Origin: Antedon mediterranea
Taxonomy: Eukaryota; Echinodermata; Crinoidea; Comatulida; Antedonidae
Reading direction: 5' to 3'
Assembly: GCF_964355755.1 (NCBI RefSeq)
Contig: NC_092678.1
Coordinates: 6,668,922 to 6,732,921, forward strand
DNA: 64,000 nt
Within the stretch, counting starts at the first letter, position 1. Every line of letters begins with the position of its first letter. A program made the translations under genes and the position numbers. Under the pieces are notes generated by a model that was not told where the DNA came from, made no database searches, and saw only the letters and a list, made by a program, of their open reading frames with translations. Of the stretch, positions 25,738 through 62,662 are shown piece after piece.

Positions 25738-26932
25738 TTAAATGTTAATGTGGTCCTGTCCAAAATAATAAATAATGTTATGTATGTAAATAATATTGAT
25801 TATATATATTGATATAATAATGCTTAGGTTTGATGTTAAGCTGGGGGTGATTGGATGATGACCACGTGAACAATGATGATGATGAGAAGGGTGGCATTGG
25901 ATGAGGACAATTTGTAATTGCATAGACGCTCCATCACACGCATGTGTGCCACTGTTAAAAAAGGTGAAAATGATGATCAAGCTCAGCAAGTATACTTACT
26001 TGGCACGCCTCTGGTAACAAAATACAGCAAGACAAATGAAGCCTATCAACAAAACTCCTGTACTAACATAAGGGGTTATCAATACTGCTTTTGTCACCAG
26101 CACTTTTCCCTTCAAAGCAACATCGCAACTTTGTTCATTCGTATAATTTCCCTTACATTTCGTACCTGCGCATTCAGACTCCCGTACCACATCACGTGAC
26201 CTTACGCGTTTCGTTGCATTTTCACAAGATGACCATTCAGTCCATGTACTCAGTTGACAATCAACATTCTTGCATTCACAGCACTGACCACTAAAGGACT
26301 TTAGACAATCACAACCTTTTTCTGTTAGGGTCCCTTCATTGTAGCAAACGCGGTTGCAGGATCGGTTATCACTGGTTCCTTCGAAGCATAACCCGCACGC
26401 TTCAGTGACGTTCCTGATCCTGAATTGAGTGCCGAATAGACCACATTCGTGTGTACATTCAGACCAATCACCCCAATCACTATACTGGCAGTCACTGTAC
26501 TCCACTTCACATGACTGGTTTTCGAAGGTGATCGAGTTCCAATGGTCTGCATCCAATATCTGTCTCAAGCACATTTCTTACCCTATACCGAGTCCCATTT
26601 TCTCCAAGTTCTTCAGAATGACAGGAGAACCAAACCCCCCATTCAGTGTACGTACAGTCAATGAATTGTTCTATACATGATTGAAATTCAACGATAGGTT
26701 GACAGCATTCAGACGGTTCGTTTTCTCCACGTTCTTGTGAATGACACGCAGACCAATTACTCCAATCAATGTATGTACAATCGCTTTCCGTTTTTGTTGC
26801 TTTAGCTTTCCCTGAGAAAAATCCTCCAAGGAAACCAACTCCTAACAATATTACCAACAAAATTCCTATTCCTACTTTCGTAGTAGTGTCAACGTCTTTA
26901 TTAGGCCTGTCGGTTTCTTTATTATCCGCCAT
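25738..26932 (-). pseudogene. TSR membrane protein A, frameshifted
   Basis: Exon 1 (26,932-26,000) opens with a 20-residue polar stretch and a helix (GIGILLVILLGVGFLGGFF). Two TSRs follow, then a one-base frameshift near 26,533 within GAACTCGATCACC. The reading continues in the next frame (25,996-26,574) with a TSR (DCQYSDWGDWSECTHEC), an EGF-like knot (CYNEGTLTEKGCDC), a final TSR (STWTEWSSC) and a membrane helix ending CYQRRA. A phase-2 donor (AA|GTAAGT) leads to exon 2 (25,951-25,738), which starts GTHACDGASMQ, similar to the DGASQE tail of E and F. TSR1 also lacks about a dozen residues between GEN and the CCQP segment. The frameshift could be real decay or an assembly error. Compared with E it has fewer TSRs. 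Confidence 0.75.
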
Positions 26933-27021
26933 GGTGCAATGAAGTGCGTATAATTACAGGTTAATTCACAATATATTGATGAAGTGTAATGATAATGTGT
27001 GTGTAAACGAACATTAACGAG

Positions 27022-27066
27022 TATTATATACGGTTGATACAGGTTTATTGTTAAAAGGAAATTCCC
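27022..27066 (-). promoter_or_regulatory. Gene A promoter block
   Basis: On the sense (minus) strand, a kB-like GGGAATTTCC (27,057-27,066) is followed by AACAATAAACC (27,042-27,052) and TATATAA (27,024-27,030), about 92 bases before the ATG. The same order is kept in B, C and D. Confidence 0.55.
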
Positions 27067-28079
27067 AGTTTGACAAAGATATTACACAATTATAGCAAGA
27101 TCAATGACAGCATCTAAAAATAAATACCATATCACCTGCCAGCGACAATTCTTTTTCTATACAAACGTTTACAATTAAGGAATATTATAAGGAGCCTTTA
27201 TCAATTGTTGTTATTCATGAGTCAAAAAATTGAAAAACCTGATAACTATTAATAGACAAAATGTAATAAAATGTCACTGAACTAGAGGAGAGAAGAGCCT
27301 ATCGACCTACTTATACATGGGTTGACACACCCGGGTTGACATGGGTTCGGTGAGAATTACATTCATGGAAATTGCGGGGTAATAATTGGTCAGGGTAGTT
27401 TGGGGTTTTAATCAATCTTACAGACAAAAAAAACAGATGAATGATTAGTAACTGAGGCAACACTAAAAGTACAGTTTTTGTAAACACAATAATTGATCTC
27501 TTTTCATACATGACATCACACACAGGTCTCATCAAAAATAAATTTCATACAATTATGGACTTCCCTGAAAGAGTGAAATTCCACTCTTCCGTAAAGTAAT
27601 TAGTATTGAGATGGTAAATATTTAATAAGGAGTCAGATTTATTTTATTTTAAAGATGTATATGTAAAACCTGAACAAATGTTTTCACTTATAAAATAACA
27701 AAATAAATTGTTAAATTCAACACAAAAAAAACCCATTGGCTAGCAGCCAATTTGACATTTTTTTGCTTTAAATTACAGTTTTTTTTCAGGTAAAACTTTT
27801 TTTTTCGATCTAATTTTGTGGATAACTATTATATGACATTAAAATGCCATATTCCACAAAAAGGTCAATTTCTAGAAAAATCCGGTGTCATTTCGAAGAC
27901 GCTGCAATCCATTTTTTGTACTACTGAATTCCAACATGACATTTGTCCAGTATCATAGAGATTCTATATTACAGTGTCACATATATTATATCATGAAGTT
28001 TGGCTTATACCCAATGATACAGGCATCACATGTGATATGTGATGCTGTGGTAATGAATTTGCTCTATTGATACAGGAAA

Positions 28080-28945
28080 CAAATATAAAAGTTCTACAAT
28101 ACTAAGCATCGGCTAGATGTATGTTTTGTTTTTGTTTTGTTTGTTTTTTATTATCATAACTACAACAGCACCTGTACCGGTATTTGTTTTTCTATTATGT
28201 TGACATACAAAAGACACAAATAGAAATTTGTGTAATAATACAAAACACTGGGTTTTTACAACATATTTTCAGTACTGACGCAATGATCTAAACACGTTAT
28301 AATTTCTTGTTATTTCTTTTGATGTATTACTATAATAGTAATAATACCATAATTGTATTATGCAAGCCTTTAATCTGTATGTATTATACATAACCTAGCT
28401 TTTAATGTATATTTGTGTATTTAGTTGTAATCTTCTGAATTTGTATAGTATATCTTTTTTTTATATATTTTATGCCAATTTCAAATGAATTTCCATTTAT
28501 ATTTACTACGGACAACAAAATAATATCAGTATCAGTAATAGCAAAATTATAGACCATGATCATTTGAATGACTTGTACATAAAATGAGCATAAAATGGGT
28601 TTGTCAACGTTAACAAACACGTCAACATCACCGAGGAAGTGTTTTGAAAGCCCAAAGTTTTAAATCTATCAAACCAGTTTGACAAAAATGTGTGCTGTGC
28701 CCAAATATGGCAGTGATATGCTTAAACATGGTAGTGATATGTCATCTTGTCCACATGAGCACAAAACATTTTTGTCACATAAAGTTTGTGTAGACAGAGC
28801 TTAATGTTACAATAAAAAAAGAGAAGAGAGAGCATTATAATTCTATAATAACCTTTATTATTCCAACGTATATTACACCTTACAGCATTGTTAGTTGACA
28901 ATAAATGCATCAAAGCGATTCAAACACTTTTGTCCTTTATATTAT
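28080..28945. repeat. Segmental-duplication spacer S1
   Basis: This spacer matches 33,240-33,850 (continuing at 35,628-35,760) and, in its second half, 42,015-42,430. Shared marks include CCGGTATTTGTTTTTCTATT, GTCAACGTTAACAAACACG and GACAATAAATGCATCA. These spacers lie between gene units and show that the array grew by block duplication. The stretch 27,070-27,870 is the upstream flank of A and matches 41,310-42,000 upstream of G. Confidence 0.8.
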
Positions 28946-29205
28946 TTTATAGGTATTTATTCATAAAAAACACATAAATAGTACAAACAGAAGGCAGCCA
29001 ACGGCTGAATAATTCTGCAAACAACGTACAAAGTAAAAATTCAAAAGAATTTATATATACAAGTACACAGTAAATCAAATCATTAAAATGCCGTTAAAAT
29101 TCTTTAAAATGTCAAAAGACCCAAATTCAGTCATAAACCAAGGCATTCGGTAATCATTAATTAATTCGTTATTATTAATGTTATAAACCTACAAAGTTTT
29201 AAACA
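28945..29205 (-). mobile_element. LINE 3'-end fragment (probable)
   Basis: The sequence is absent from the equivalent place beside gene C, where the flanks are continuous at 42,425. Its minus strand reads GCCGTTGGCTGCCTTCTGTT then ATGAATAAATACCTATAAAA, typical of a non-LTR retrotransposon 3' end. Confidence 0.5.
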
Positions 29206-29267
29206 TAAACATATTCTATAACTAAAATAATAATGAATTGTATCTGAAGTAAGTAAACTTAAAGTTA

Positions 29268-29652
29268 GCAATCTAAATAAGGTAATTATATTTCTAAGGA
29301 AGACATTTTTATACAGCAATCTAAATAAGGTAAATATATATTTAAGCAATACATTTTTATACAGCAATCTAAATAAGGTAAATATATATTTAAGCAATAC
29401 ATTTTTATACAGCAATCTAAATAAGGTAAATATATATTTAAGCAATACATTTTTATACAGCAATCTAAATAAGGTAAATATATATTTAAGCAATACATTT
29501 TTATACAGCAATCTAAATAAGGTAAATATATATTTAAGCAATACATTTTTATACAGCAATCTAAATAAGGTAAATATATATTTAAGCAATACATTTTTAT
29601 ACAGCAATCTAAATAAGGTAAATATATATTTAAGCAATACATTTTTATACAA
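29268..29652. repeat. 48-bp tandem repeat, about 7.5 copies, in the 3' flank of B
   Basis: The unit CAATCTAAATAAGGTAAATA plus TATATTTAAGCAATACATTT is near identical across copies. The single-copy version is present downstream of gene C (42,488-42,530), so the array expanded only at B. It stays open on the minus strand because 48 is divisible by three. Confidence 0.92.
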
Positions 29653-29831
29653 AAAGTGTATAGAGCCTTTTGTTTTATACCGGTATCTATTAATCATTTA
29701 CACACATTTGTTTGTATTGTAGGCATTATCAATTGCTAAAGGTTATGCTAGGCTGGTTGACAGTAATTAATTAATTGAAGCTGATCCTTAATCTGTCTGA
29801 ATTGACGATCAATCTGATAACATATGATAAT

Positions 29832-30975
29832 CTACATGATGATGATGTAGATAATGATGAGGATAATCTGATAATACAATGATGGTGATGATGAAGATGA
29901 TGACGTACCATCGCAATCTGGTTTCTTCGTAGGTATGTTTGTTTGTATTTTTCACGCTGCTGCTCTAGCCCGCTACGTCACACGAGATGACTCATTCATT
30001 AGATGAAATCAAGCAGCAGTATAGTACTACACTTTGACATTTTTGTTAAAATGGAAACTCGACTATAATTTATAGGTACCACCTGTTGAATCCAAAAAAC
30101 GGCTGGGAAAAGAGTCTAATGACAAATCTCAAAGCATTTCTGGTATTTATGAGTCCTATGATATTACTATAATTCACTGTCAGATAATCATTGAATTATT
30201 ATCAAAACAGTCCATTGAAGTTTTTGTTTGTAATAGGATACTTGAAGTATCTAGGCTTGATGAAGTGACCCCAGACTTGACCTTAGCAATAACAATAAGC
30301 AAGCAGCGTTTTTTGTAAGAAATATTCTTGTTTATTTTATGTTTTTAGGCAATGTGGCCAAGGATTACCCATAGTGAATTAATCACTGTCTTATCCGATA
30401 GGTGGAAAGATATTACAGCGTCGTCCTTCAACGGGTTGTACCTTGCATAATCCGCAGGTTTCTGTGACGTTCCTGATCCTGAATTGAGTTCCATCACATT
30501 CAGACCAATCACCCCAATCACTATATTGACAGTATTCTACTTCACACGACTGTTCTTCGAAGGTGGGTTGCAATATGCATTCATCTATATCATTCTCAAG
30601 TATGTTCCTACTTCTATACTGAGTTCCGTTTTCTCTACGTTCTTGTGAGTAGCACGGTGACCAAGGACCCCAATCAGTGTATTGACAATCAATGAACTTA
30701 TTACTACATGACTGTAGGTCTACTTCGGTGACATGTTTACTACATCCATTTTGCTGAACAATGTTCCTAACTCGAAATTGAGTTCCATTTTCTCCACTTT
30801 TTTGTGAATGGCATGCGCTCCAGTTACCCCAGTCACTGTACGTACAATCATTTTCCTCCCATGGTTTCCCGCAAAACATTCCTCCAACAAATCCTCCAAC
30901 AAAAACTCCTGCCACAAATAAGAAACATATTCCTGCTTTCTTTAATGTTACATTACTTTTCTTACACTCCTTCAT
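29832..30975 (-). pseudogene. TSR membrane protein B, split by a repeat insertion
   Basis: The body (30,975 to about 30,412) has a basic start, a helix with two FVGG units (GVFVGGFVGGMF), three TSRs and CGLCKVQPVEGRRCN, then runs into foreign sequence and a stop after FPPIG. The missing end lies at 29,939-29,832: NIPTKKPDC, a Ser run, then YYQIILIIIYIIIM and a stop, closely matching gene C. Between them, 29,948-30,335 is the interspersed repeat seen at 24,306. About 18 bases of the original junction are lost. The last TSR also lacks the segment between WSEC and GTQFRIRN. It may make a truncated secreted or anchored product, but as a family member it is broken. Confidence 0.8.
29948..30335. 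mobile_element. Interspersed repeat inserted in gene B
   Basis: The sequence from TTTTCACGCTGCTGCTCTAG to AAGAAATATTCTTGTTTAT matches 24,306-24,908. It separates two parts of B that are contiguous in C. No clear target duplication remains. Confidence 0.75.
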
Positions 30976-31062
30976 GGCGTAAAGAAGCTCGATTCACAAA
31001 ATTCAAGCGTAACGTAATAATGTGCAAGTACCACAAGCAGCAGTAAACGATTAATGACAGAG

Positions 31063-31104
31063 TTTATACGGTGGAAACTGGTTTATTGTTACGCCGACAT
31101 TCCA
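31063..31104 (-). promoter_or_regulatory. Gene B promoter block, degenerate kB site
   Basis: TATA-like GTATAAA (31,063-31,069) and AACAATAAACC are kept. The kB-like motif is reduced to TGGAATGTC (31,096-31,104). Confidence 0.45.
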
Positions 31105-32185: not shown

Positions 32186-33852
32186 CGAAATGTCGTTCTT
32201 TTTTAAGCGTTATTTTTCTATTATGTATAAACATGTATATTGATAGTAAATTGCAAAATGTAGTAAAGAAGGTATGAATTAAACACATTGTAAAAAAAAC
32301 AAAAAATATTATATACTAATTTTATTTGATAGAATGTTTTAATATTTTAAAGAATGTGTACATGTATTTAAAGAAATTATACTGAGTTAAAGCAAGATTG
32401 TAGTATATCACAGGGCGTTTATGATTTCTTCTATGCCTTAAAAAAGTACAGAAAATGTAATAAACAAATGATACAGGCGTTACATGTGATACATATGACA
32501 AGTTGTACGTCGTACATAATTGATACAGGAACAAATATAAAAGGTCTACAATATTAAGAATCGGCTACTAGATGTGGCAATAACATGTAGTGTGTTATTA
32601 TATCTGGTCAGTCAATCATAATAATTATGTTTAACAAGAAATATTTCTTACAAAAAACGCCGCTCGACATTTTAACATTAATCATTGTTCCTTTGATTAA
32701 TTTATGATTAATTATTAAAAAGATGTCCTTTTATCGCAAAAATACATACAAATCACAGATAGTTCTTTAATTATGAATCACATGCCCATTTTTTCACTAG
32801 TTAATTGTATACACAGCATTTGAAAGAAGACATGTGTACCTTTCCAACAATGTATACTAATTCAAAAATGGCATTTAAAATGGTCAATTTTGAACTTCAA
32901 TGTGCTGTAGCCTGTTTGTGTGTGACCTCAACCTGTACAACTGAATACCCTCTAGAGACAACGTGACTTCACGGTGGTACAAGTGAACAGTCTGTTGATT
33001 CGCGTCAACCAATCAAAGGGCGAGAATCCAAAATCGTTCAACCGTGAGCCCTCATAGACTCTCTTTTTTTTACCAGACGTTTTTTGGGTCCAGCAGCTGG
33101 GACCTTTGATACTAAAGCTACCGCTATGAAACAGCTTATTAATGAATATGTCCTACTGGGACATAGCTGGCTAGAGCTGCGGCGCGAAAAAGTTGACAGT
33201 CGAATAAAAGTGAACACGGTACCAAATATATATATTGTTTCGTAATATCATAAGCACAGCAGCACCTATACCGGTATTTGTTTTTCTATTATGTTGGCAC
33301 ACAAAAGACATTAAATAGACATTACAGTGTTATATAATACAAGACACTCTGGGTTTTTACAACATATTTCCAGTACTACGCAATATATATAATGCGACAT
33401 TTACCAAAGACAATAATTAATTAATGACAATAAAAAAATAAAACAACGAAGATGATTCAAACACCACCGCACTGTTCCCCTGCAATTTAAGGCGCAAGGC
33501 CCGCCTAGACAGTATTCACAAGTGCCATAGTGGTGTTTGGCGTCTATGCCTGCAAATGATCTAATACGTTCTAATTTCTTGTTATTTTCTTTGATTTATT
33601 ACCATAATAATATAAGGTTATAGGTCACGATCATTTGAACAACTTGTACATACCATTAGTATAACATGGGTTTGTCAACGTTAACAAACACGACAACCTC
33701 ATCGAGGAAATGTTTTGAAAGTTTTAAAGCTCTGTTTACAAAAAAAAGTGAGATATGCCCAAAAATGGTGACATGCTTAAATATGGAAATGATATGACAT
33801 CATCATGTCCATACATGAGCACACTCACATAAAGTTTGATGTGTAGACGGAG

Positions 33853-34868
33853 CTTCTGATGAGTTCGCTCTACCCTGGGGTGTACCACAGGGATCCGTAA
33901 AAGGTCCACTCGATTTCATCTTATACACTGGACCACTCAACAACATCATTGATTCCCACCCGGAAGTTCGTCATATGATCTATGCAGATGACACTCAACT
34001 ATATTTAATCATGAAACCTACACATCACTCTGAATCTGTTAACAACCTTGAATCATGCATTGCAGATGTTCGCTCATGGGCCATTCCAAAGTTCCGTGAG
34101 GCATCATCATTTCCTTTGGTCCATATCGGAGATACTAGTGTCTCTACCTCCAGCTCAGCCAGAAATCTAGGCGTCCAACTAGACAACAGCCTCGGTTTAA
34201 AAGAACACATTCGTAATGTTTGCCGTGGTGCTTCCTTTGGAATTTACCAGATCGGCCAGATTCGTAAGTACCTTGACAAAACATCAACTGAACGTCTTGT
34301 TCATGCTTTTGTTTCATCTCGTCTGGACTGTAATAACTCGCTTCTGTACGGCCTACCAACTTCTTATCTGTCTCCTCTTCAACGAATCCAAAATTCCGCC
34401 GCAAGACTTATCACTGGCACTAAACGACATGAACATATTTCTCCCGTTTTACGTGACTTACACTGGTTGCCTGTTGATCAGCGCATTCGTTTTAAAATTC
34501 TGTTGCTGACATATAAGGCCATCAACGGATGTGCTCCAGCCTACATATGTGACATCATTACTCCGTCAACCAACTCTTCGCTTCGTTCATCCAGCAGACT
34601 TCTTCTAAAACCTGGACCCCGTTCCAGAACTCGGTTTTACGGTGATCGTGCTTTCGCTGTCGCAGCCCCAAAACTCTGGAACACTCTACCACTCGAAATA
34701 CGCTCATCAAAATCTGTTATCACATTTCAAACTAAACTCAAAACTCATCTCTTCAGAGAAGCATAATCGCACGCTACTACTTGCACTGATCTTGGAAAAC
34801 ACAGCGCTTTGAAACCTTTGTCTCTTGCGCTTTATAAATGTTATTTATTATTATTATTATTATTATTA
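33853..34868 (+). mobile_element. 5'-truncated CR1-like LINE, RT C-terminal part
   Basis: It opens mid-RT with WGVPQGSVKGPLDFILYTGP and YADDTQLYL, then RNLGVQLDN, RIQNSAARLITGT, LHWLPVDQRIRFKILLLTYK and GDRAFAVAAPKLWNTLPLEI, ending HLFREA and a stop at 34,766. Between RSWA and IPKFREA a segment is missing compared with the usual family pattern, so the copy has an internal in-frame deletion. The 3' end is a TTA microsatellite tail (34,838-34,868), typical of CR1-like elements. It interrupts duplication spacer S2 between GGAGCTT and TGTTACAATAA. Confidence 0.9.
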
Positions 34869-34882
34869 TGTTACAATAATAA

Positions 34883-36901: not shown

Positions 36902-36902
36902 T

Positions 36903-39817
36903 TTTTAGGCAATATCTTATTGCCTAAAACAAAACCAATACTGCTAGGAACTATTTACCGTCCTCCATCGCAAAGTTACGTTTCTTTTTTAGATAACATA
37001 GACAGGATTATGACAGGTTTCATAACGAGATGGTCATCCTTGGGGATATGAATATCGATATGAACAAAAACGACAGCATGTTAAAGAAATACCAAGATTT
37101 TATGAACACTCATTCTCTTGATCAGATTATTAAAGAAACCACGCGTACAAGAACGGAATCTACGGAAACTATTATCGACCATATTCTTTGCAGTAACATT
37201 AACTTATACCAAGCTGGAGTTTTGAAAATTGGAATCAGTGATCATTTTGTAACGTTCTGTACTAGAAAGAAAAAACGAAGTCAATTCACAGGTAGCAAAT
37301 TCTGTAGGATTCGGTCCTTGCGCAACTATGACCCGGAAAACTTTTCCCTTTTACTTAACGAATATGACTGGTCGGTCGTGAAGGACTCTACTGATGCCAA
37401 TGACGCCTGGTACAAATTTAAATCGATGCTTCAATCTATTTTAGATAAAGTGGCACCGTCCAAAAATATTCGAATTAAAAAAAGAACTGAAGACTGGATG
37501 ACCCACGAAATGTTAAGTAAAATAGAGGAACGCGATAAATTGTTATCTAAACTAAACAAGCAACATCCGAGAGATCCTGAACTATATAAACGTTACTGTA
37601 CTTTACGTAATAACATCCAGAGAGACATTAAAGAAACTAAAGTTAACCTTGTATTGAATAAATTGGAAGAATATAATCCAACCCTAAACAACTTTCGAAG
37701 CAACGACGTTGGGAAAATAGCTTTGAATATTGAAGATAATATATGTTATTCAGATGTTTCCATCGCTCAACATTTTAATAGATTTTTTACAAATGTTGCC
37801 TCTGCCCTAGTAAATAAGCTTCCAATTGTAAGAAGCTTGTACGGTACACAGAGCGAATTGTTTCAGTCATTTTACCAAGGTAAAATTACAAATAGGTTCT
37901 TCCTTAGTACTATCGATGACAAATTCATCGAAGATCAACTTAATGGTTTGAATGCAACCAAAAGTACAGGTCTTGATAATATTCCTGCTCGATTTTTAAA
38001 AGACGGAGCGTCGGTACTTAAACAACCTATTATGCATATTGTAAATCTGTCAATTATTAACGGTATTGTCCCAGATGATTTCAAAGTTGCTAAAGTAAAA
38101 CCACTATTCAAAAAGAACAGTCGGACTGACGTAAATAATTATCTGCCTATAGTTTCGAAGATCCTCGAAAGGGCAATACACCAACAGCTTGTTAAATATT
38201 TAGAAACTAACAAATTAATTTATGAATTTCAGTCAGGATTTCGTAAATGTCACTTGGCAAACTTACTGGGATGGTGCTTTTGGACTTACAAAAAGCATTT
38301 GATACCGTTAATCATTACATTCTATTTAACAAGCTTGATGCAATTGGAGTTGATTCACTGCAATGGTTTAAGTCATATCTAAGTGATAGAAGCCAAGTTG
38401 TTCATGTCAATGAAATTTGTTCCGATAAACTATCAATTGATTGTGGTGTTTCCCAGGGGAGTATACTGGGTCCACTGTTGTTTTTAATATACATTAATGA
38501 CATATATCTATCGGAGTAGATTCTGAATGTAAAGTTATGCTATATGCTGATGACAGCACCTTAATTTATGCTGATAAAGACCCTTTGATAATTAAAAATA
38601 AATTAACAACTAACTTAAATAGTTGTAATAACTGGCTTAATGAAAATAAGCTATCATTGCATATGGGTAAAACTGAGTGTATATTATTTGGTACCAATAG
38701 CAGACTTAAGCAAATTGATGAATTTAAAATTGAAACTTTGGATTACTATATTTTTGGAAAACAGTCAGTAAAATATCTAGGTGTTGAACTAGACAATAAT
38801 GTATATGGGGACACCATTGCTTCAACTGTTGTTAAGGAAGCTAATGCTAGGTTAAAGTTTCTCTACAGACAATCTGATTATCTTAATTTTAATTGTAGAA
38901 AACTTCTATCAACGGCCCTTATCCAATGTCTTTTTGATTATTCATTTTCATCGTGGTATGTCGGTATATCCAAGAAATATCAACATAAACTTCAAATTGT
39001 TCAAAACAAAGTAGTTAGATTCATTAATAAGAAAGGCCTTCGGACTCACGTCGGTCAAAACGAGTTAAATTTGTTAGGATTTTTTAATGTTGATGATCGA
39101 GCAAAGTTTTTAAGATTATGTCATGTCTATAAAGTTGTGCACAATAGCAGCCCACAATACATGCATTAACAACTTCCATAGGATTGTTCATTCCGACAAC
39201 TATAACACTAGAAATAGTTCATTTAATTTTAGAATTCCCACTAAATCATCAAATACATTCTTCTACAAGTCTATCAAGGATTGGAACGCTTTGCTCCAAC
39301 CAATTAAAAGTAACCCGACAATCTACTCTTTTAAATTAAACGTTAAGAAACATCTAAAAGACAAAGCACTACATACATAATAATTATGACGATAAAAATA
39401 AAAATACTTATAATAATATGGAAGCAATTTAAAATATCTTTTGTTCTGTTTGCTGTTTTTTATTTGTACATTTTGCTATTGGCATATCATTTTTTGTCTT
39501 CTGTTTAAATGTTATTATTTTCTTAAGGACCCCATTGGAAATAAGTCCTATAACTAGGACTTTCCTGGACTTTCCTTGCATCTCTAAGTCTGATTTTTTA
39601 TTTTACTTTTTTAAATTGTATTATTAAATTGTAGTTAAGTACAAATAAAAGAGATTCAGTCAAAAAAGAATTTTAATAACTATGAAGGAAAATTTTAAAA
39701 ATGATTGTAATTATGTATGATATATTTTAATAGACTGACTTTTTAACTTGAATTTGTGTAATTATGTATTTAACCATGTCATGTTTTTTGAGATGTAAAT
39801 AAAACAAACCAAACCAA
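36903..39817 (+). mobile_element. 5'-truncated jockey-like LINE, endonuclease and RT
   Basis: The coding body is spread over several frames. The endonuclease tail has GTIYRPPSQSYVSFLDNIDR and then VILGDMNID (from 37,030). The RT palm follows, with LNATKSTGLDNIPARFLKDG, LLDLQKAFDTVNHYILFNKL, GVSQGSILGPLLFLIYINDI and MLYADDSTLI, and then KYLGVELDN and the C-terminal FYKSIKDWNALL (stop about 39,380). Breaks in frame occur near 37,025, 38,250, 38,515 and 39,165, and RT sequence around FRKCH is missing. A noncoding 3' region runs to AATAAAACAAACCAAACC at 39,817. The copy cannot be autonomous. Confidence 0.88.
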
Positions 39818-40458: not shown

Positions 40459-41344
40459 CTATTTCAACCCACCGTGGTTGGGACTGAAGTGAAAAATGAA
40501 TGGAGAAAAATATACTTAAGTCACTCAAACGCCCACCTCTCTCTTCCTACCCTCACAAACAAGTAACACGTACTACTTACCAAATTAATATTAGGCATAT
40601 TGTTGCCAACATAATTGTGCCAAATAATGGATGTCCTAGTAAACTGACTCCTGCAATTGAAGCCGCCGATATGGCATTATAGTTTCTGAAAGCAGGAGGC
40701 GTATCAGGCACGTGCTTTTTGGCAGCTATATCGTATATAGGCCTATAGTGAATATCATCACGGAGTTCATCATCATCATTATCATCATCACCACCAACAT
40801 CATGAATAACAGTAGGCATCGTGTGATCACAATTGGTCTTTTGATGAACCAAATCTTTTTTTGTGGAATTTCGTTCCTTGTAGCATTTGTCGTTAGTAAC
40901 ACATGTCAGAGCGCTAGGGGCTATTGGATCATCAACATCAACGGGTGGATCGTCGTTTTTAATAAGTGTAGGCGTATGGTTGTTTGAAAATTGGGCATCA
41001 TTGTCGTTAGTAACACGATAACTCAGAGGGCTAGGGGTATTTGAACAATCACAACCTTTCTCTGTGGACGTCCCCTCATTGTAGTAAACGGGTTGATAGG
41101 TTTTCTCAGTGGTTCGTTCTAGGCGGATTTGCTGCATCATCCTTTTGACCTCATCTATATCAACAGATAATCTATATAGGGGATCCACATCACTATGTTT
41201 GTTTGTACTGTATTCACTGCACTGACAATCGCTTTCCTTTTTTGTTGCCACAGCGAACATATATCCCCCAACGAAAGTGACTGCCAACCCTATGTACAAA
41301 TGTCTCGGAAAGGAAATTCCCAGTTTGACAAAGATATTACACAA
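40459..41344 (-). pseudogene. TSR-family derivative G, TSRs and start codon lost
   Basis: The open frame keeps family landmarks but no TSR. It has an N-terminal helix (LAVTFVGGYMFAV), TKKESDCQCSEYS, then YYNEGTSTEKGCDC like the EGF-like knot of A and F, an acidic Asp-rich region (DDDNDDDELRDD) and a C-terminal membrane helix (PLFGTIMLATICLILI). It ends at a phase-2 donor (TG|GTAAGT), as in A, E and F. A possible last exon at 40,483-40,459 would add CPNHGGLK and a stop. There is no in-frame ATG before the first helix. Instead the frame runs into the kB-like promoter motif (41,312-41,321), so promoter, 5'UTR and start were deleted by a fusion. A deletion within the old TSR region probably made the rest. 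An unseen upstream exon could still rescue it. Confidence 0.6.
41312..41321 (-). promoter_or_regulatory. kB-like motif fused to gene G
   Basis: GGGAATTTCC on the sense strand is identical to the gene A site. In A it lies 125 bases before the ATG; here coding sequence of the first helix follows directly. Confidence 0.5.
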
Positions 41345-42711: not shown

Positions 42712-43617
42712 CTACGTGATGATGATGTAGATAATGATGAGGATAATCTGAAAATAAAATGATGAAAATGATGGTGATGATGAAGATGATGACGTACCAC
42801 CGCAGTCTGGTTTCTTCGTAGGTATGTTACATGTTGTACCTTGGCGATTACAGGGTCGTTCTTCAACGGGTTGTTCCTTGCATAATCCGCAGGCTTCTGT
42901 GACGTTCCTGATTCTGAATTGAGCGCCGAATTGATCACATTCTTGTGTACATACAGACCAATCACCCCAATCAGTATACTGACAGTCACTGTATTCCACT
43001 TGGCATGACTGTTCTTCGAAGGAGGGTTGCAATATGCATCCATCTATATTATTATCAAGTATGTTCCTAACTCTATACTGAGTTCCATTTTCTCCACGTT
43101 CTTGTGAGTGGCACGATGACCAAGAACCCCAAATACTGTATTGGCAATCATTACTTTCTTGCCTACATGACTGTTCTTCGAAGGTGGGTTGCAATATGCA
43201 TCCATCTATATCATTCTCAAGTATGTTCCTATCTCTAAACTGCGTTCCATTTTCTCCACGTTCTTGTGAGTGGCACGTTGACCAAGGACCCCAATCAGTG
43301 TATTGACAGTCAATGAACTCGTTACTACATGACTGTAGACCTACTTCGGTGACATGTTTACTACATCCATTCTCCTGAACAATGTTCCTAACTCGAAATT
43401 GTGTTCCATTTTCTCCGCTTTTTTGTGAATGACATGCGCTCCAGTTACCCCAATCACTGTACGTACAATCACTTTCCTCTTTTGTTTCCCATGGTTTCCC
43501 GCAAAACATTCCTCCAACAAATCCTCCGACAAATCCTCCAACAAAAGAAGCTCCTGCCACAAGTAACAAACATATTCCTGCTTTTTTTTTTGGTACGTGA
43601 TTTTTCTTACACTCCAT
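42712..43617 (-). CDS. TSR membrane protein C, intact, four TSRs
   Basis: The single open frame of 301 codons has a basic start (MECKKNHVPKKK) and then a helix with three FVGG units, which would act as a signal or signal-anchor. Four TSRs follow, each opening DCxYxxWGxWSxC (residues about 50, 103, 155 and 208). They carry WxxW motifs suited to Trp C-mannosylation and a repeated GENGT sequon for N-glycosylation. TSRs 1-3 lack the CG pair of classic TSRs; TSR4 has CTQEC. After CNIPTKKPDCGG comes a Ser run and a hydrophobic end (YFQIILIIIYIIIT), resembling a GPI-attachment signal or tail anchor. The ATG is followed directly by the basic region shared with B. No EGF-like knot or phase-2 donor is present. 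Extracellular, cell-surface location is inferred; the ligand is unknown. Confidence 0.8.
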   Translation of the reverse strand: MECKKNHVPKKKAGICLLLVAGASFVGGFVGGFVGGMFCGKPWETKEESDCTYSDWGNWSACHSQKSGENGTQFRVRNIVQENGCSKHVTEVGLQSCSNEFIDCQYTDWGPWSTCHSQERGENGTQFRDRNILENDIDGCILQPTFEEQSCRQESNDCQYSIWGSWSSCHSQERGENGTQYRVRNILDNNIDGCILQPSFEEQSCQVEYSDCQYTDWGDWSVCTQECDQFGAQFRIRNVTEACGLCKEQPVEERPCNRQGTTCNIPTKKPDCGGTSSSSSSPSFSSFYFQIILIIIYIIIT

Positions 43618-43707: not shown

Positions 43708-43749
43708 TTTATACGGAAAAAACTGGTTTATTGTTACGTGGAAATTCCA
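43708..43749 (-). promoter_or_regulatory. Gene C promoter block
   Basis: On the sense strand, TGGAATTTCC (43,740-43,749), AACAATAAACC and GTATAAA (43,708-43,714) lie in the order and spacing seen in A and D, about 90-130 bases before the ATG. Confidence 0.55.
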
Positions 43750-50780: not shown

Positions 50781-51326
50781 CTACAAAATGATGAAGTGAA
50801 TAATAATGAGGATAATCGGGTAATAAAATGATGATAATGATGACGAAGATGATGCACTGCCACATTCTAGTTCTTTCGATGGTCTTTTGCAACTCTTATC
50901 GCGATTACACGGTCGTTCTTCAGCGGTTGATTCCAAGCATAATCCACAGGCTTCGGTTACCTTCCTGATCCTGAATTGGCTTCCGAATTGACCACATTCG
51001 TGTGAACACATAGACCAATCACCCCAATCACTATACTGACAGTAACTGTACGCTACTTGGCATGATTGTTCTTCAATCGTAGGTTCGGAGCATGTTAACG
51101 GTCCGCATCCGTTTATCTCAAGCACGTTCCTAACCCTGTACCGAGTTCCGTTTTGTCCACGTTCTTGTAAGTGGCAAGTGGACCACATGCCCCAAGAACT
51201 GTACGTGCAATCACTTTCCTTTTTCGTTACTTTGTGTTTTTCGTAAAACATTCCTCCAACGAAAGCTCCCGCCAATAATAATAGTCCTCCTATTGTCTTA
51301 ATTACATCCCATTTTGTACACTCCAT
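50781..51326 (-). CDS. TSR membrane protein D, short intact member
   Basis: The single frame of 181 codons starts MECTKWDVIK, followed by a helix (TIGGLLLLAGAFVGGMF) with one FVGG unit. Two TSRs follow, starting DCTYSSWGMWSTC (residue about 40) and YCQYSDWGDWSMC (about 94); the second has CSHEC. GQNGT gives an N-glycosylation sequon in TSR1. The end is LECGSA, a Ser run, and FYYPIILIIIHFIIL, parallel to C and B. The C-terminal hydrophobic stretch could serve as a GPI signal or tail anchor. It is the smallest member with an uninterrupted frame. Promoter motifs match those of A and C. Confidence 0.8.
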   Translation of the reverse strand: MECTKWDVIKTIGGLLLLAGAFVGGMFYEKHKVTKKESDCTYSSWGMWSTCHLQERGQNGTRYRVRNVLEINGCGPLTCSEPTIEEQSCQVAYSYCQYSDWGDWSMCSHECGQFGSQFRIRKVTEACGLCLESTAEERPCNRDKSCKRPSKELECGSASSSSSLSSFYYPIILIIIHFIIL

Positions 51327-51413: not shown

Positions 51414-51463
51414 TTTATACCGCACTGGTTATGGTACTGGTTTATTGTTACATGGAAATTCCA
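51414..51463 (-). promoter_or_regulatory. Gene D promoter block
   Basis: On the sense strand TGGAATTTCC (51,454-51,463), AACAATAAACC and GTATAAA (51,414-51,420) keep the spacing of the C block. Confidence 0.55.
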
Positions 51464-51901: not shown

Positions 51902-54900
51902 AAGCGTGGTTCCCACTAGAACGTAACGCAGCGATGTATCGACGCAAAGTGCTGTATTGCGTAATCACAACTGGGAACCGACAACGCAATAGTGCTGCAA
52001 ACATTTTTCAATTCAATTCAATTCACATTTATTTACTCATCGTTTATAAATACAGTTTCATAGCATAAATGATGGCAAGGATCCTGCATAGAGAATAGAA
52101 GTTTACACTTCTGTTTTCGCAGGACCCTTTTACATAAAAGACATAAAACAATAAACACAACATAATAGATACAAAATAAAAAAAAAACATTCCTATATAC
52201 ATTTTAGAGTTGTTCATCATCAAAAAGCGATACTGTTTTTTTAACATGATTATTTGTACTATGTGTGTATACTCGCACACACCAACACAAATGCATAATA
52301 TATGCATCTATATTTTATGAGTAAAGCATTTTAAGTTCTGTAATTCGATAAAATGTCTTTTTTTACATATTTTTTTAGTATTTTATAATTTTTGTTAACA
52401 ATATCTAAGTGATTTCTACAGAGCTCATTCCATAGTTTCGGTCCGTGAATACTGATAAAATGTTGACCAGACGTTAACCTAGAGTATGGTTGTTTTACGC
52501 TACAAATATTTCGAAGATTATGGGTAGTATTTTCGTTTCTTTTGAATATCATTTGGATTCGTCTGGGTAAAACATTGCTTTTAATCTGGGCCATGAAACC
52601 TAGGACGGTAACTCTGTTGATATCTTGTATGTTAAGAATATTTAATTGCTTAAACAGTGGCTCAGAATGTTGCCATGGCTTTTTAAATAAAATTATTCTA
52701 GCAGCCTTTTTCTGGAGTTTAAGAAGGGATTCTAGTGTACTATCATATGTACTGCCCCAAATAATGTTTCCATACTGAAGGTGCGGTAGAATTAATGTAT
52801 TATACAAATTTGGAGTTTTTATCAATATTCCAATAGACCTAGCGGTTTTTTTGCTAATAAGCCTTATATGATTTTTCCAGCAAAGGTTCTCATTTATTAC
52901 AACCCCAAGAAATGTTACATTTTTTTGTTGTTCTAAAGTAATGTTATTCATTTTCAATTCAATGTTGGTTGTAATAATACGCCTTTGGGCAGTTTTAAAG
53001 ATTACGTAATTTGTTTTGCTGGTGTTTAATAAAAGTTTATTAGCTTTGAACCACATATTAATTCTATCTAGTTCCACATTCATAGTGTTTGCCAATGCGT
53101 TCAGGTTATTTCCACACTTGAATCCTGTTGTATCATCGGCAAAGCTAATTAATTCAATTTGTGTACTTGAGTTACATATATCGTTTACATATACAAGAAA
53201 CAACAAAGGTCCCAAAACGGACCCTTGTGGAACACCAATACTAGTCTCCTTAATATTAGACGAAGTACCATTTATAAAAACATATTGCTTTCGTGATTTT
53301 AAGTAGTTACTGAACCATTTTAGTGTAACACCTCTTATACCATAGTGGAATAGCTTGTTCAGTAAGATACTGTGGTCAATAATATCAAATGCCTTTGACA
53401 AATCCATAAATGTGGCAATTACGAACTCTTTGTTTTCAAATGCCTTTAGTATTTTGTGGATCAGATCAATTATAGCGTGGGAGGTTGACTGATTGTTTCG
53501 GAAGCCGTATTGCCAATCATTTAGTATATTGTAAGTTTTAAAGTAATTATACAATCTGGAATGGACTATCTTTTCAAAGATTTTAGAGAAAATTGGTAGT
53601 AGTGATATCGGGCGATAATTCGAGGCTAAATGACGGTCCCCTTTTTTGTATATGGGAATTACTTTTGCAATTTTTATCTGTTCCGGTATTGAGCCGGAGT
53701 GAAGAGATACGTTGAATATATAAGTCAAGGGCTTTACAATAGCATCACCAACTGCCTTGACTACCTTTGGTGAAATATCATCAAAACCAGGTGTTTTGTT
53801 TGCATCAAGTGATTGAATCACTTTTAACACTTCCTCCTCATTTACATGGTAGAAAAACATAGAGTTACTTTGCCTGTTTAGCAGGTAATCAGAGTATTGT
53901 GCCGTTGATGGCTCAATACTGTCTCGTACCTTGAGACCAACATTAATAAAATAATCGTTAATGTGGTTTGCAATAGGCTCACAACCCTCTATGAGTTTGT
54001 CACCAGATGTAAAAGTGGATGGAACATTATTTTTGCCTCCACCTGGATTTATAATATCATTTATAATATTCCATGTTTTTTTTTTATTTCCTTTAGTATT
54101 GTTAAAAACATTTTCATAATATGATTTCTTTGCCTTTTTGCATGTACGCATAAATGACTTATTAAACTCTTTATAAATATCCTTATTTTTTGACGAGGGA
54201 TGTTTTATAAATTTGTTGTACAACACATGTTTTCTTTTGCTAGACTTTAAGAGTCTTGAGCTCATCCATGGTTGTTTGAACTTTTATACTTTTTGTGATT
54301 TTCTTGAACTTTTTTTTTTTTTTAAAGTTTTTATTATATAATTTTTTGAAAGTGTTGATAAAAGCATTGTAAGCATCATCAGGGTTTGTCCTTACATATA
54401 CATCAGCCCAATCAACAGGTAATAAGTCATTATATAGTTTATTTATATTTCTTTCGTTTATTGCATATTTATGAGGTTCTATATTACCGGTTTTTACTTT
54501 AATATGTTTGTCGGGCACGGAGTGGATAATTTGGTATACCGGTAAATGATCAGATATGTCTGAGATTAGTATACCAGATAACATTTGTTCAGAAAGTGTA
54601 TTGGAGAAAATGTTATCAATTAATGAAGATGTGTTGTTTTGTATTCTAGTGGGTCTTGAAATCGATGGGTAGAAGGAATGCGACATCATTACTTCTAGAA
54701 AATTATTTACAAAATCAGTCGATGCATGCTTAAGTAAATTAATGTTAAAATCACCCATAATGTGGCATGATTTTCCCTCGATATCAATAGTATTAAGAAT
54801 ATCGTCTAGTGATCTATTAAAAAGTTCTATATTCGAATCAGGAGGTCTATATATTATACCAACAATCGTATTGTTACATTTTTTTTTCAATTATTTCAAT

Positions 54901-56436: not shown

Positions 56437-58305
56437 TTATCCAATAATAGTACATTGTTCTTCAAGTCTGTATTCTGGACTATTAAAGCTTTCTTTTTCT
56501 TGACTAGCGCCATCATCGATCTTCTTCTGGACTCTGAAAAAAAACCCCGCACAATGGTTGTAACTGAGAGAAATTGATTTTCAGCTTATTGATCAATTAA
56601 ATTAATACTATGGATAGAATGTGTAGCCTACATTTGTCAACATCCGCCAGACCTGCAGGTGGTACACGCCAAAATAAATGTATGCGTGTACACTTTAGGA
56701 TAATATAGAGAAAAATAGATGGATAGAATAAGTTTGGTATCTTCCAACTAAATTATAGAGTAGAGGCTACGTCAGCCCGATTGACTGTTGACTGATTGCA
56801 TTATTTTTTTCCTAGCATGCTGAGGCAGAAATCATGAATAATGCATAAGCTCCTATGTTAAAGAATTACAAGGTAGCTGACCTATTTCCTAAATATAACT
56901 GAACCTAACCATTAAAATACTCTCTCTTAACTACTAGAACATCGAAGATGGGTGCAGGCTTACAAACATTGTTTTATATGTTGCATAGATTTATTGTTCA
57001 ACGTAACATGAGACTATTACATTAAATATTGTTGATCAAGATCAAGGGATAGAAATATAATTATTGATGTAATCATGATTAGGATGATTTGGTAAGTGAT
57101 GATGATAAGATGTAAATAATAATGCCATAGGCCTATTTTAGGATATCATTTTCAATGAACTTTGACCGGGGGTGATGAAAATGATCATCAGTCAACCAAT
57201 AAGCAAATGGTACATACCTTACATTCCTATGCCTACACATTAATGATGCAAGACAAATCAACCATATCAACACAATTGCAGTAATAATGTTAAGGGCTAT
57301 AAATCCTGGTTTCGACACTAACACCTTTCCCTTCAAAGCAACACCGCAATTCTGTTCTTCCGTATAAGGTCCTTCACATTTTGTACCTGCGCATTCAGAC
57401 TCTCGTAAAACATCACGTGATCTTACGCGACTCGTTGAATTTTCACAAGATGACCATTCAGTCCAGGTACTCAGTTGACAGTCAGTATTCTTGCAACCAC
57501 AACACTGACCACTAAATGACTTTGGACATTCACAAAAGCCTTGGTTTGTGAGCTTCCCTTCATTGTAACAAAAACGATTGCACTGGTGTTCTTCAGTGGT
57601 TGGTTCAGAACATATTCCGCATACTTTAAGTACGTTCCTAGCCCTGAATTTAGTTCCAGAGTTGCCACATTCGTGTGAACAATCTGACCAAAGGCCCCAG
57701 TCACTATACTCGCAATCACTGCATCTCTCCTTACATGACCGCTCCTCAGTTGTAGACTTGGAGCATATGCCACTTACTTCAAGTACGTTCCTAACACGAA
57801 ATTGGGTACCAGACTCGCCACATTCTGAGGAGTAACATGCTGACCAAAAGCCCCAGTCACTGTACTCGCAGTCACCGCATCTATCCTCACATGTCCGCTC
57901 CTCGGTGGTAGGCTTAGAACATATTCCGCTTACTCCAAGTACATTCCTAATCCGAAATTGTTTACCAGTCTCGCCACATTTTGGGGAGTAACATGCTGAC
58001 CAAAAACCCCAATTACTGTACTCACAATCATTGAGTTTTTCATTACATAACTGTTTTTCAAATGTAGGTTGGAAGCATGTTAACGATCCGCTTCCATCTA
58101 TCTCGAGTATGTTCCTAACTCTATATCGAGTTCCATTTTCTCCACGTTGTGAGTGACACGGTGACCAAAGGTCCCATTCACTGTACGTACAATCAATTAC
58201 ATTTTTCAATGCTCTTTCATTTCCGAAAATCATTCCTCCAATAAAAAGTCCAAATGAAGAAAACACTAGAATAACAATCGCTATCACAACTGTTTTACCT
58301 TCCAT
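56437..58305 (-). CDS. TSR membrane protein E, intact, five TSRs, two exons
   Basis: Exon 1 (58,305-57,218) and exon 2 (56,533-56,437) join in phase 2 (AG|A) through AAG|GTATGT and CTCAG borders, giving 394 residues. Order: helix (VVIAIVILVFSSFGLFIGG, residues 6-24); TSR1 from about 39; TSR2 about 94; TSR3 about 146; TSR4 about 198; an EGF-like knot (CYNEGKLTNQGFCECPKSF, about 246); TSR5 (LSTWTEWSSCENSTSR, about 276); a membrane helix (IITAIVLIWLICLASLM); and a cytoplasmic tail with DDGASQEKESF ending CTIIG. TSRs 2-4 are close internal duplicates. TSR1 has lost the Cys found as DGCGPLTC in F (DGSGSLTC). It is probably a type I surface receptor, or has two membrane passes if the first helix is uncleaved. 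Reading through the donor instead would add a 30-residue unspliced tail. Confidence 0.85.
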
Positions 58306-58478
58306 GGCATAAATAGCATGGAGTACATTGAAATAGTACTACGTCAGTACTAAACAATTTAAGTTTGGTTGTTGAAGTGTACAATGTTAATAATAATTAA
58401 CTACACAGATGTCAGGCCCATTTTAATTCAAGCATTATGCTTCGATCGGTGAAAATTGGTTCATTGTTCGTCGTTTGT

Positions 58479-58488
58479 GGGAATTTCC
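58479..58488 (-). promoter_or_regulatory. kB-like motif upstream of E
   Basis: GGAAATTCCC on the sense strand lies 174 bases before the ATG. It is next to a second half-site (GGGATTTTC) and followed by AACAATGAACC. The block is near identical upstream of F. No clear TATA box was seen. Confidence 0.55.
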
Positions 58489-58861: not shown

Positions 58862-59380
58862 TATGTTAGCCTGAAGGCTAAATAAAAGTATAAAGAGAAA
58901 ATAAAAGAAAAAACATTTAAATGAAAGAAAACGGATTGTACAAAAAGAAACTAAAGAGCAAAAAGTACAATACTTAACTTTGATGGAGTGTTATTATTTA
59001 TTATTAGTATTATTATCAATGTTTTTAATGTTATTTTAAAGAAAATATTATTAGACCTATTATTAAAAATGTCATTTAATTTAAATATTATATTGTTTAT
59101 TATTATTTTGTTATTTATGTTCTTGTTAATACTGTATATCATTTAATTATGTTATGAGTTATGATCTTTATTTGTTATTTAGTTAAAGTAGTATTATTTT
59201 TATTATTATTTCGATTTTCCTAATTTTAATATTTAATCTTATTTTTAGTGTTTTATTAACCATTATACCTCAAATTATAATCCTGATTTAATTGTGTTTT
59301 TAAAGTTTTGTAAATATAAATTTAAAGTCTCCATGCAGCAGTTAAGTGTTGTTTACAATGATGATACAAAATACAGATAT
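58862..59380 (-). repeat. Dispersed repeat, copy 2
   Basis: The inverse of 18,640-18,965, from ATGTTAGCCTGAAGGCTAAA to GTTTACAATGATGATACAAA. About 250 bp of AT-only sequence is inserted near 58,990-59,240. The stretch 59,380-59,780 has no gene. Confidence 0.7.
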
Positions 59381-59779
59381 AAATAAAAGGCCTAAAATGA
59401 ACAGAAATTACATTTGCAAAATTAACAAATTACATTATAAAGTTAAACATAAGAAATAAATGAATGACAAGGAATTTTAAAATCAACTGATTTTTACACT
59501 ATGCAAGTCTTACTCTGCAATACAGAACGGAAATCTGGTACAATCTCTAGATCTATTAATTGATAATTGCGCAGCGCTTTTTCCATTTATCAAGTATTAG
59601 ATGGGTTTCTTTACTGAACACATGATAGTCACTTCCAAGTGTTAGGTGTATTTTAACATCAGTATTAGAGTTTATGAATAAGTGCCAAATATGATTAAGG
59701 TTAGAAGATTGCAATTGTAGTTTTAATCTCATGGTTTCTTCTTTTCTAATGTCGTCGTAAGCAGGATATTCAAATAGGA

Positions 59780-60150
59780 CACCCTAAAAGGAACAAAAAT
59801 AATGCAGGCGGGGGAGGGTGGTGCGTACGACGCAAAAGGGTCCACTTTTTAAATAAGTGCAATTTATGAAGACCTAAAGCTCCAGTTTTCAAAATTTTCT
59901 TAGCTCAATCATAGAGCTGGTGTTCGATACATTTTTTTCATATTTTGTATCATATTTCGAAGTACAATAAGTGCATTTTCTGGGGACCTACAGCTCTATT
60001 TTTTACATTTTTTTCTTAGCTCAGCCCCAACCATGGTAGGGCTGGTCCTGGAAGCTATTTCGAAGTATAATCCAATTTCCGTGAACCTACCAGCTCTATT
60101 TTCCAAAATTTTCTTATAAATCAGCCCCGAACAGCAACCAGCCTACGCCT
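59780..60150 (-). repeat. Fragment related to the hAT-like element interior
   Basis: Degenerate units with GAAGTACAATAAGTGCATTT, ACCTACAGCTCTATTTT and TTCTTAGCTCAGCCCCAACC correspond to the inverse of the 44,169-44,430 tandem block. The element ends are not both visible. Confidence 0.6.
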
Positions 60151-60964
60151 CTGTTTAACTACTATACTTTTCACACTCGGTTGATAAGAAACTGTAATGT
60201 TACCTTTAGAAACCTAGCTATAGCCTAGGGCGAATACGCAATAACATCACTGCTTGAAAGTCATAATTTATTCATGATTGTGGTTAAGTTAAGGCTACCT
60301 AATTTAACTGACACGGTAATCCAACATAAGATAAATTGTCAAATCCAAATTAAAGTAAAATAGATTCTGTTAATAACTAATCTATCTATATCAACAACTA
60401 GTATTACGCCTTTTCACGAAACGGAAGACATCTTCGATTAAATGACAAACAATACTGTGCAGGGAAGCGTAACTAAAAGAAATAACATATTTTCAGGGGA
60501 TTTCAGGACACACCATGTTAATTAAAAAATCGTATCGCATGAGAAAAAAAATTGCCTACATTAATGAATGATTAAAACAAATTAGAAAAACAAATTATGA
60601 TCCCATAAAATCCAACGCAGGGTGTTCAATTTTTCAAAATCATAAGTAATGTAGACCAATCTTTTATAGTTTTTAATACAAGTTAGGAATCAAAAATTAA
60701 TTTTATTCAATTGTTCAGGCAATAAAAACGTAGTACTGTGACCTGTAGGTAACCAGTGTTCAATTCGGAAGAATTGCAATGGTTTTCCCAACTAATGTTC
60801 ATAAAAGTTAAAATGAAAATACAGTATATATAAATTGACAATAAAAGTAGTTTATTAAAAAAAAAAAAAATATGGTCTTAGTCGACTTCTTTGAAACCCA
60901 CCGACACGATGCAGCGGAACATGCAACTGGCACTGTCTAATGTATGGCGCACCAAAGCTGTCAT

Positions 60965-61092
60965 TTATTCGGAAATAAAGATATCTTAGTTTTAAACTAA
61001 AATATCTTATTACTAAGATAGCTCTATTATTAAAAGAGATATCTCTATTTAAAACTAAGATATGTCTATTAAACAAAGATATCTCTATTCTT
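60965..61092. repeat. Degenerate AAGATATCT repeat
   Basis: The AAGATATCT/AGATATCTCTATT motif recurs about five times with TTTAAAACTAAGATAT spacers, in a stretch built of local palindromes. No gene was seen in 60,150-61,240. Confidence 0.65.
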
Positions 61093-61244
61093 GCATACTA
61101 ATGGATTCATAAATTTACTAATATTGCATAGCGGAAAAATAATGTCTCATAACCATTTAAAGTGTATGTTTTCAATGAGGTTGATGATTAGAAAATCAAG
61201 AAAAAGGTTAATAAAAATCAAGATAAGAGAAAATATGATGTCAA

Positions 61245-62662
61245 TTATCCCAAAACAGGTTCTTCTAGTCTGCCGTCTGAAATACATCTAACGCTTTCCT
61301 CTTCTTGACTAGCGCCATCAGTATCTTCCTGGGTTCTGAAAAAACCCATCAAAGAAATACTAAAATTTATTTTAAATTTATTGATCAAATAAATCAATTG
61401 CTATGATCGTAAATGTATTAAAAAAATGTTGGTGTCCACCTAGAAATTATGACGTCATATGGAGGTACGTTGAGTTTGGTTAAGGCTTAATTACTTGCTA
61501 AGATGGCTTCGTGGAGCTGTCACTGTAGTGGGTAGGTAACCAACTTAGGGTAAATAAGCCTAAACATGCTCATAGCTAGTTTTTCAAGTCGTCAAACACA
61601 TCGGACTAAATTTGACCGGTTTTTACAGACGAGATAGCCAACTGCTGGACGACGACTTGGACAAACGATAATATAATATGAAATTTTATGATAAAAATAT
61701 CATTTACAAATGAAACCTCAATATTGCTTACCTGCCACGTCTATGTCTACAAAACAATGACACAAGACAAATCAAGCATATAGTCAACATAACAGTAATA
61801 ATGTTAAGAGCTATAAATCCTGGTTTCGACACTAAAACTTTTCCCTTTAAAGCGACACCGCAATTCTGTTCTTCCGTGTAAGGTCCTTCACATTTTGTAC
61901 CTGCGCATTCAGACTCTCGTAAAACATCACGTGATCTTACGCGACTCGTTGCATTTTCACAAGATGACCATTCAGTCCAAGTACTTAGGTGACAGTCTAT
62001 ATCTTTGCAACCACAGCAATGACCACTAAAGGACTTTGGACACTTACAACCTTGTTCTGTGAGTGTTCCTTCATTGTAGCAAACGCGATTACAGTGTCGT
62101 ACTTCAGTGGTTGGTTCAGAACATATGCCGCATACTTTAAGTACGTTCCTAGCCCTAAATTTAGTTCCAGAGTTGCCACATTCGTGTGAACAATCCGACC
62201 AAAGGCCCCAGTCATTGTACTCGCAATCACTGCATCTATCCTTACATGACCGCTCCTCGGTGGTAGACTTGAAACATATTCCTCTTACTTCAAGTACGTT
62301 CCTAACTCGAAATTGTGTACCAGACTCGCCACATTCTGGGGAGTAACATGCTGACCAAAAACCCCAGTCACTGTACTCACAGTCATTAAAGGTTTCATTA
62401 CATAACTGTTCTTCGGCGGTAGGTTGGAAGCATGTTAACGGTCCGCATCCATCTATCTCGAGTATGTTCCTAACTCTATACCGAGTTCCATTTTCTCCAC
62501 GTTCTTCAGAGTGACACGGTGACCAAAGACCCCATTCACTGTACGTACAGTCATTTTCTCTTTTTAATGCTCTTTCATTTCCGTAAACCATTCCTCCAAA
62601 AAAAAAATCCCAGTGCAGCAAAGCAAAAAACAACGCCTGCTATTAACTGTGTTACCCTCCAT
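61245..62662 (-). pseudogene. TSR membrane protein F, frameshifted N-terminus
   Basis: Exon 1 carries TSR1 (DCTYSEWGLWSPC), TSR2 (DCEYSDWGFWSAC), TSR3 (DCEYNDWGLWSDCSHEC), the EGF-like knot (CYNEGTLTEQGCKC), a last TSR (LSTWTEWSSCENATSR) and a membrane helix, to the donor GGCAG|GTAAGC at 61,732. Exon 2 (61,335-61,245) adds TQEDTDGASQEEES and ends LEEPVLG. Phase 2 matches E. The family ATG context is at 62,662 (MEGNTV), but small indels after GTT and in a run of ten Ts put that start out of frame with the body. The open body frame has only a late in-frame ATG (MVYGNER) that would drop the signal helix. It is either a recent pseudogene or a homopolymer error in the assembly; everything downstream is intact. 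It has one TSR fewer than E. Confidence 0.75.

Follow-up and report, generated by a model that had tools for sequence, protein, structure and literature searches.

The 64-kb window, that is, the whole stretch of DNA that was analysed, carries seven related copies of a TSR gene family (W1 to W7), all on the minus strand between positions 25738 and 62662. Judged from their sequence, these copies are best read as a new membrane-anchored TSR(+EGF) family, and we put at about one half the probability that it is a Rel/NF-kB-regulated family of surface proteins for defence or recognition.

Results

The sequence-only reading of this DNA had proposed at least seven related genes on one strand, of which seven were confirmed, and its limits proved exact, with the W7 start codon at 62662 and the stop codon of W1 exon 2 at 25738. 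The proposed range of TSR number, from 0 to 5, and the differing integrity of the copies also held, with four TSRs in W1 (one partly deleted), three in W2, none in W3, four in W4, two in W5, five in W6 and four in W7. In intact copies, an initial methionine and a hydrophobic helix preceded TSRs of the form DCxYxxWGxWSxC. Each of the 13 members measured had the N-terminal hydrophobic helix, and those whose end was intact had a second one at the C-terminus. Moreover, two C-terminal endings were distinguished, as had been suggested: an EGF knot, a TSR, a transmembrane (TM) helix and a tail in W1, W6 and W7, versus a Ser-rich and hydrophobic end in W4, W5 and, as a remnant, W2. Only W4, W5 and W6 had uninterrupted frames in the window; W1, W2, W3 and W7 were broken, although the frameshift calls rest on the assembly as it stands and may include assembly errors.

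W6 (56437..58305) was uninterrupted, and its exon 1 (58305-57218) encoded the N-anchor, four TSRs, the EGF knot, a further TSR and the TM helix. Its intron (57217-56534) ran from AAG|GTATGT to ttttttttcag, and exon 2 (56533-56437) encoded a tail containing DDGASQEKES, to give a predicted spliced product of 394 aa. W7 (61245..62662) had the same plan with three TSRs before the EGF knot in exon 1 (62662-61732), an intron at 61731-61336 and a tail containing TDGASQEEES in exon 2 (61335-61245), and its N-terminal helix was out of frame after MEGNTV owing to two indels. In W1 (25738..26932), exon 1 (26932-26000) encoded the N-anchor, the TSRs (of which the first was the partly deleted one), the EGF knot, a TSR and the TM helix, and the DGAS tail lay in exon 2 (25951-25738) behind a 48-bp intron; a frameshift near 26545 broke the frame, and W1 is probably a pseudogene. 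The W4 frame (42715..43617; 301 aa) and the W5 frame (50784..51326; 181 aa) each comprised the N-anchor, four and two TSRs, respectively, and a Ser-rich and hydrophobic C-terminus, which in W4 was likened to a GPI signal. W2 (29800..30975) retained the N-anchor and three TSRs (30975-30394, ending in a premature stop), followed by an insert of approximately 470 bp and a remnant of the Ser-rich/hydrophobic tail; the insert contained a dispersed repeat with a second copy at 24306-24615. The degenerate W3 (40580..41344) had lost its TSRs. Its upstream DNA shared 90% identity with that of W1 and had been fused by a deletion to the helix-coding part, with loss of the start codon and the core promoter.

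Several other elements were observed in the window. LINE-type reverse transcriptase/endonuclease frames lay between TSR copies at 8121-8819 (minus), 33840-34763 (plus), 36997-39166 (plus) and 52334-54890 (minus). A tandem array of 24 copies of a 42-bp unit (11999-12995) encoded HASV(G/V)S repeats over a long frame, and a second array of eight 78-bp units with 98% identity (25050-25680) adjoined W1 downstream and was open in several frames on both strands. In addition, a 224-aa open frame at 22568-23239 had no Pfam match.

The TM-type genes were predicted from sequence to consist of two exons. Phase-2 donors lay at the same place in seven TM-type copies, three in the window and four elsewhere in the genome (W1, W6, W7, L1A, L1B, L2C and L3E), with the W1 and W7 donors reading CAA|GTAAGT and CAG|GTAAGC, and acceptors with long pyrimidine tracts preceded homologous tail exons in W6, W7, L2C (ending in RDNDNELEKD) and L3E (containing ANDNDECEKD); no exon 2 was found downstream of L1A. 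The short basic tails that appeared to end the TM-type open frames were rejected, as the stops resulted from read-through of the 5' splice donor, and a first reading of the open frames as intronless genes fell with them. Because the TM-type genes proved to have a splice donor and an intron, a retrogene origin was also dropped. The homologous tail exons, together with this read-through, indicated that the DGAS tail of the sequence-only reading was real, namely a separate short cytoplasmic exon behind a phase-2 GT-AG intron that follows the TM helix. Inspected by eye, the cytoplasmic tails showed neither a TIR or death motif nor a clear ITAM/ITIM, nor any other known signalling motif. The ending of W2, W4 and W5, a Ser-rich run plus a hydrophobic terminus with no tail, resembles a GPI signal. 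Its Ser-rich and Ile-rich halves were both encoded by a single degenerate (TCA/ATC)n stretch, each half in a different register (42715-42800, 50784-50870 and 29840-29930). A derivation of this tail from the 3' region of TM-type genes was discarded, since no alignment was found.

Domain searches placed the copies in the TSR superfamily, with TSP1_spondin and TSP_1 matching TSR copies above the Pfam curated cut-offs (E down to 3e-22); in the window copies, only TSP1 models were matched. The W-family profile matched TSR structures of F-spondin (1vex, 1szl) and thrombospondin-1, and the W6 sequence alone had no match in the PDB. An AlphaFold model of W6 with the window paralogues (mean pLDDT 32) was too poor for a fold test. 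The view that no named family has this exact layout was borne out to the extent that Pfam and PDB matches stopped at single TSR domains, and the absence of the layout from the open-access literature searched is weak evidence of absence. The tree of individual TSRs that the earlier reading had called for resolved TSR types specific to three positions (first, pre-EGF, membrane-proximal) and traced the middle TSRs to internal duplication.

The genome (354.4 Mb; 18 contigs, eleven of them chromosome-sized) was searched with W6, W4 and L2C. It contained a single let-7 locus, which marks the host as a bilaterian. The family amounted to approximately 15 copies in four places on three chromosomes, the distant loci lying at C5:30.64 Mb, C3:1.03-1.04 Mb and C5:27.2 Mb, and no further family match was found on C9 outside the window. 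The W1-W2 and W3-W4 intervals had long homologous stretches in common, which indicated that a two-gene unit had been duplicated. Approximately nine of the 15 copies were broken (four of seven in the window, and most of the distant ones). The birth-and-death turnover in tandem clusters looked for in diversifying immune receptors was found.

A second gene set in the genome consisted of secreted TSR genes with poly-Arg behind the signal sequence. In L005 to L009, which had no kB site upstream, the signal sequence was followed by nine or ten arginines and then by TSRs (L006 to L009) or by approximately eleven TSR-EGF modules (L005, an 866-aa frame). With E 9.8e-28, L005 exceeded the cut-off of TSP1_CFP_C, the properdin-type model. 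Another related gene, a TSR-EGF array of approximately 15 modules (L001:698-4048), contained two frameshifts in different modules, both yielding a nearly identical out-of-frame peptide, NVVDHALFLY, as if the frameshift had spread through duplication or gene conversion.

Alignment of upstream DNA revealed a kB consensus site, which read GGGAATTTCC/GGAAATTCCC in W1, W3, W6 and W7, whereas W4 and W5 carried the form GGAATTTCC. All of these sites lay on the minus strand. The W1 block (27042..27065) comprised GGGAATTTCC and ACAATAAACC, followed by the TATA-like TATATAA at -98, and the W4 (43725..43748) and W5 (51439..51462) blocks comprised GGAATTTCC and ACAATAAACC, with TATAAA at -96 and -93, respectively. 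The W6 (58458..58488) and W7 (62799..62829) blocks comprised GGGAATTTCC (as GGAAATTCCC) and ACAATGAACC. W3 retained its site upstream (41312..41320), and the W2 site, also on the minus strand, was degenerate (TGGAATGTCG). Sites were also found upstream of the distant copies L1A (-71), L2D (-117), L3E (-166), L4F (-119) and L4H (-154), and L2C had a near-consensus site at -131. A second conserved promoter word, ACAATRAACC, came after the kB site in six window copies, all except W3 (27042-27052, 31080-31090, 43725-43735, 51439-51449, 58458-58468 and 62799-62809, minus strand). Genome-wide, the pair of GGAAWTTCC and ACAATRAACC occurred at five cluster genes only, and the reversed pattern had no match.

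Within the whole window, GGAAWTTCC was seen seven times versus 0.51 expected, and six of the seven lay at family promoters. Scored as GGGRNWYYCC with at most one mismatch, 50-220 bp upstream of 15 copies in 11 lineages, a kB site was present 71-183 bp upstream in 12 copies (shuffle mean 2.7, maximum 9) and in nine lineages (shuffle mean 2.0, maximum 6); with zero mismatches, six of the 15 copies were positive versus 0.18. Among 300 permuted motifs, none reached 12 copies and one reached nine lineages. Since the motif was already known when the scoring was done, all 6- to 9-mers were also ranked unsupervised, and for each word length the kB core took first rank; the p value of the 9-mer multiplied by 66286 words was 1.6e-6, an overstated significance because lineages whose promoters share descent were treated as independent. 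Across the 354 Mb, GGAAATTCC occurred 2,927 times, or once per 121 kb, approximately twice as often as its reversed control. No kB site was present within 600 bp upstream of four secreted TSR genes or at the mutually overlapping HSP70 loci, a thin sample of unrelated promoters. The forkhead word GTAAACG near the kB site (4 of 11 lineages) was not significant after correction.

The copies therefore have the conserved promoter-proximal kB site expected of a Rel/NF-kB target, and kB sites were kept where dS was 1.0-1.3. As the family promoters share descent, these sites reflect retention under selection and not independent gains. Rel-homology domains were encoded in the genome at C6, C7 and C10. 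A GGAAWTTCC site at L019:2223, within approximately 700 bp of a Rel-homology exon, is possibly autoregulatory.

Pairwise dN/dS was 0.20-0.43 across all eight pairs, with the lowest values in the TSRs; by windows, the TSRs were mostly at 0.05-0.4, and the helices were looser (0.4-0.7). These values indicated that amino-acid change was constrained and not diversifying, and dN/dS above 1 in the ectodomain was not found in the pairwise comparison. The earlier description as fast-evolving recognition receptors was consequently supported as to the birth and death of copies only, and not as to an arms race, of which dN/dS gave no sign. Overall, the interpretation as a tandem multigene family of variable TSR number survived without the arms-race sense of fast evolution, and the proposed immune-type role gained independent support from the conserved kB element.

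Discussion

Cysteine-rich TSR stalks that are anchored in the membrane and have short tails would fit roles in surface adhesion, recognition or opsonisation, and the kB element makes induction through the Rel pathway plausible. In the proposed mechanism, an extracellular stalk of 1 to approximately 15 spondin-type TSRs, which in most members ends in an EGF-like knot followed by a membrane-proximal TSR, would be tethered to the membrane by the N-terminal hydrophobic helix and either a C-terminal TM helix with a short tail or a GPI-like signal. Transcription would most likely be driven by Rel/NF-kB acting on the kB site approximately 70-185 bp before the start codon. The proteins would then appear on demand in immune or stress responses and may serve in adhesion, recognition or opsonin-type surface roles. 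Copy number shifts through segmental duplication and TSR number through internal duplication, and many copies die. The sequence itself shows the modules, the exon structure, the turnover of copies, the conserved kB element and purifying selection; topology, splicing, Rel binding, induction and a role in defence are inferred from it.

The layout, which runs from the N-anchor through TSRs, an EGF knot and a further TSR to a TM or GPI-like terminus and is coupled to a conserved kB promoter, appears to be a new combination of known parts. F-spondin (SPON1) is close in its TSRs, in that TSP1_spondin was the best family model and the profile matched its structures; however, no reeler or spondin_N domain was found by Pfam in the window copies, and the W family is predicted to be membrane-anchored with an EGF knot and a TM tail. 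Likewise, neither the type 3 repeats nor the TSP C-terminal domain of a thrombospondin was found in the Pfam search. The apicomplexan TRAP/MIC2 proteins, which the profile matched at E 5e-6 to 2e-3, likewise combine a TSR stalk with a TM helix and a short tail in the cytoplasm, but no VWA domain was found in the W family by Pfam, and its host is a bilaterian animal. Tetherin (BST2) has an N-terminal TM helix, a C-terminal GPI signal and a coiled-coil ectodomain. W4 and W5 may have the same two anchors, by analogy only, as there is no sequence relation and their ectodomain consists of TSRs instead of a coiled coil. The cnidarian repertoire of TSR-only and TM-TSR proteins is similar in comprising diverse host TSR proteins, some with TM domains, linked to microbe recognition (PMC5446238). 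However, most cnidarian TSR proteins were without TM domains (Neubauer et al. 2017; PMC5446238), the words EGF, GPI and intron are absent from the text of that paper, and no link to kB was found.

The Rel-regulated defence reading has to be weighed against the possibility that the kB site is read in another context. Rel factors also work in development, and the site might be bound by other factors that recognise GGAA; furthermore, dN/dS is well below 1, unlike that of many recognition receptors, and a majority of the copies are broken. It is conceivable, with a real though lesser chance of being right, that these are adhesion or matrix proteins of development or tissues, controlled by a Dorsal-like factor or another that binds GGAA. 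Such proteins often contain TSR and EGF modules, and the observed constraint would suit a structural role; nevertheless, tandem birth and death with so many broken copies would be unusual for dosage-sensitive structural genes. Doubtful, too, is the far-reaching version of the defence reading, in which Rel/NF-kB-inducible, double-anchored TSR-EGF receptors, switched between a TM-signalling and a GPI-like form, would be a main pattern- or self-recognition system of a bilaterian lineage in which little is known of such receptors.

It is improbable that the W proteins are membrane-tethered, properdin-like complement or opsonin cofactors. A properdin-like role has been proposed for cnidarian TSR-only proteins (PMC5446238), the secreted relative L005 matches the properdin-type model, and the W proteins share with properdin (CFP) a build of stacked TSRs with little besides, and a weak TSP1_CFP_C similarity. 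However, W6 reached only 17.9 bits against the cut-off of 27, and properdin is secreted, whereas the W proteins carry a helix at the N-terminus, an EGF knot and, at the other end, a TM helix (as in W6) or a GPI-like signal. More improbable still is a decaying multigene family of no present function: the interrupted copies would agree with decay, but dN/dS is 0.2-0.3 between long-separated copies, kB sites are kept at dS of at least 1, and the exon-1 frame is uninterrupted in W4, W5, W6, L1A, L2C and L4F. Polymorphic self/non-self (allorecognition) loci would account for the tandem array, the variable ectodomain length and recombination between copies, but positive selection was not seen, and we regard this reading as the least probable.

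TSR proteins have been proposed as invertebrate recognition molecules, and their defence role is usually deduced from domain content alone. Here, the kB site, whose spacing to the start codon is similar in copies on three chromosomes despite saturated neutral sites, would tie an uncharacterised receptor-like family to Rel/NF-kB. Beneath this conserved promoter, both the membrane form (TM with a tail, or GPI-like) and the stalk length vary by duplication.
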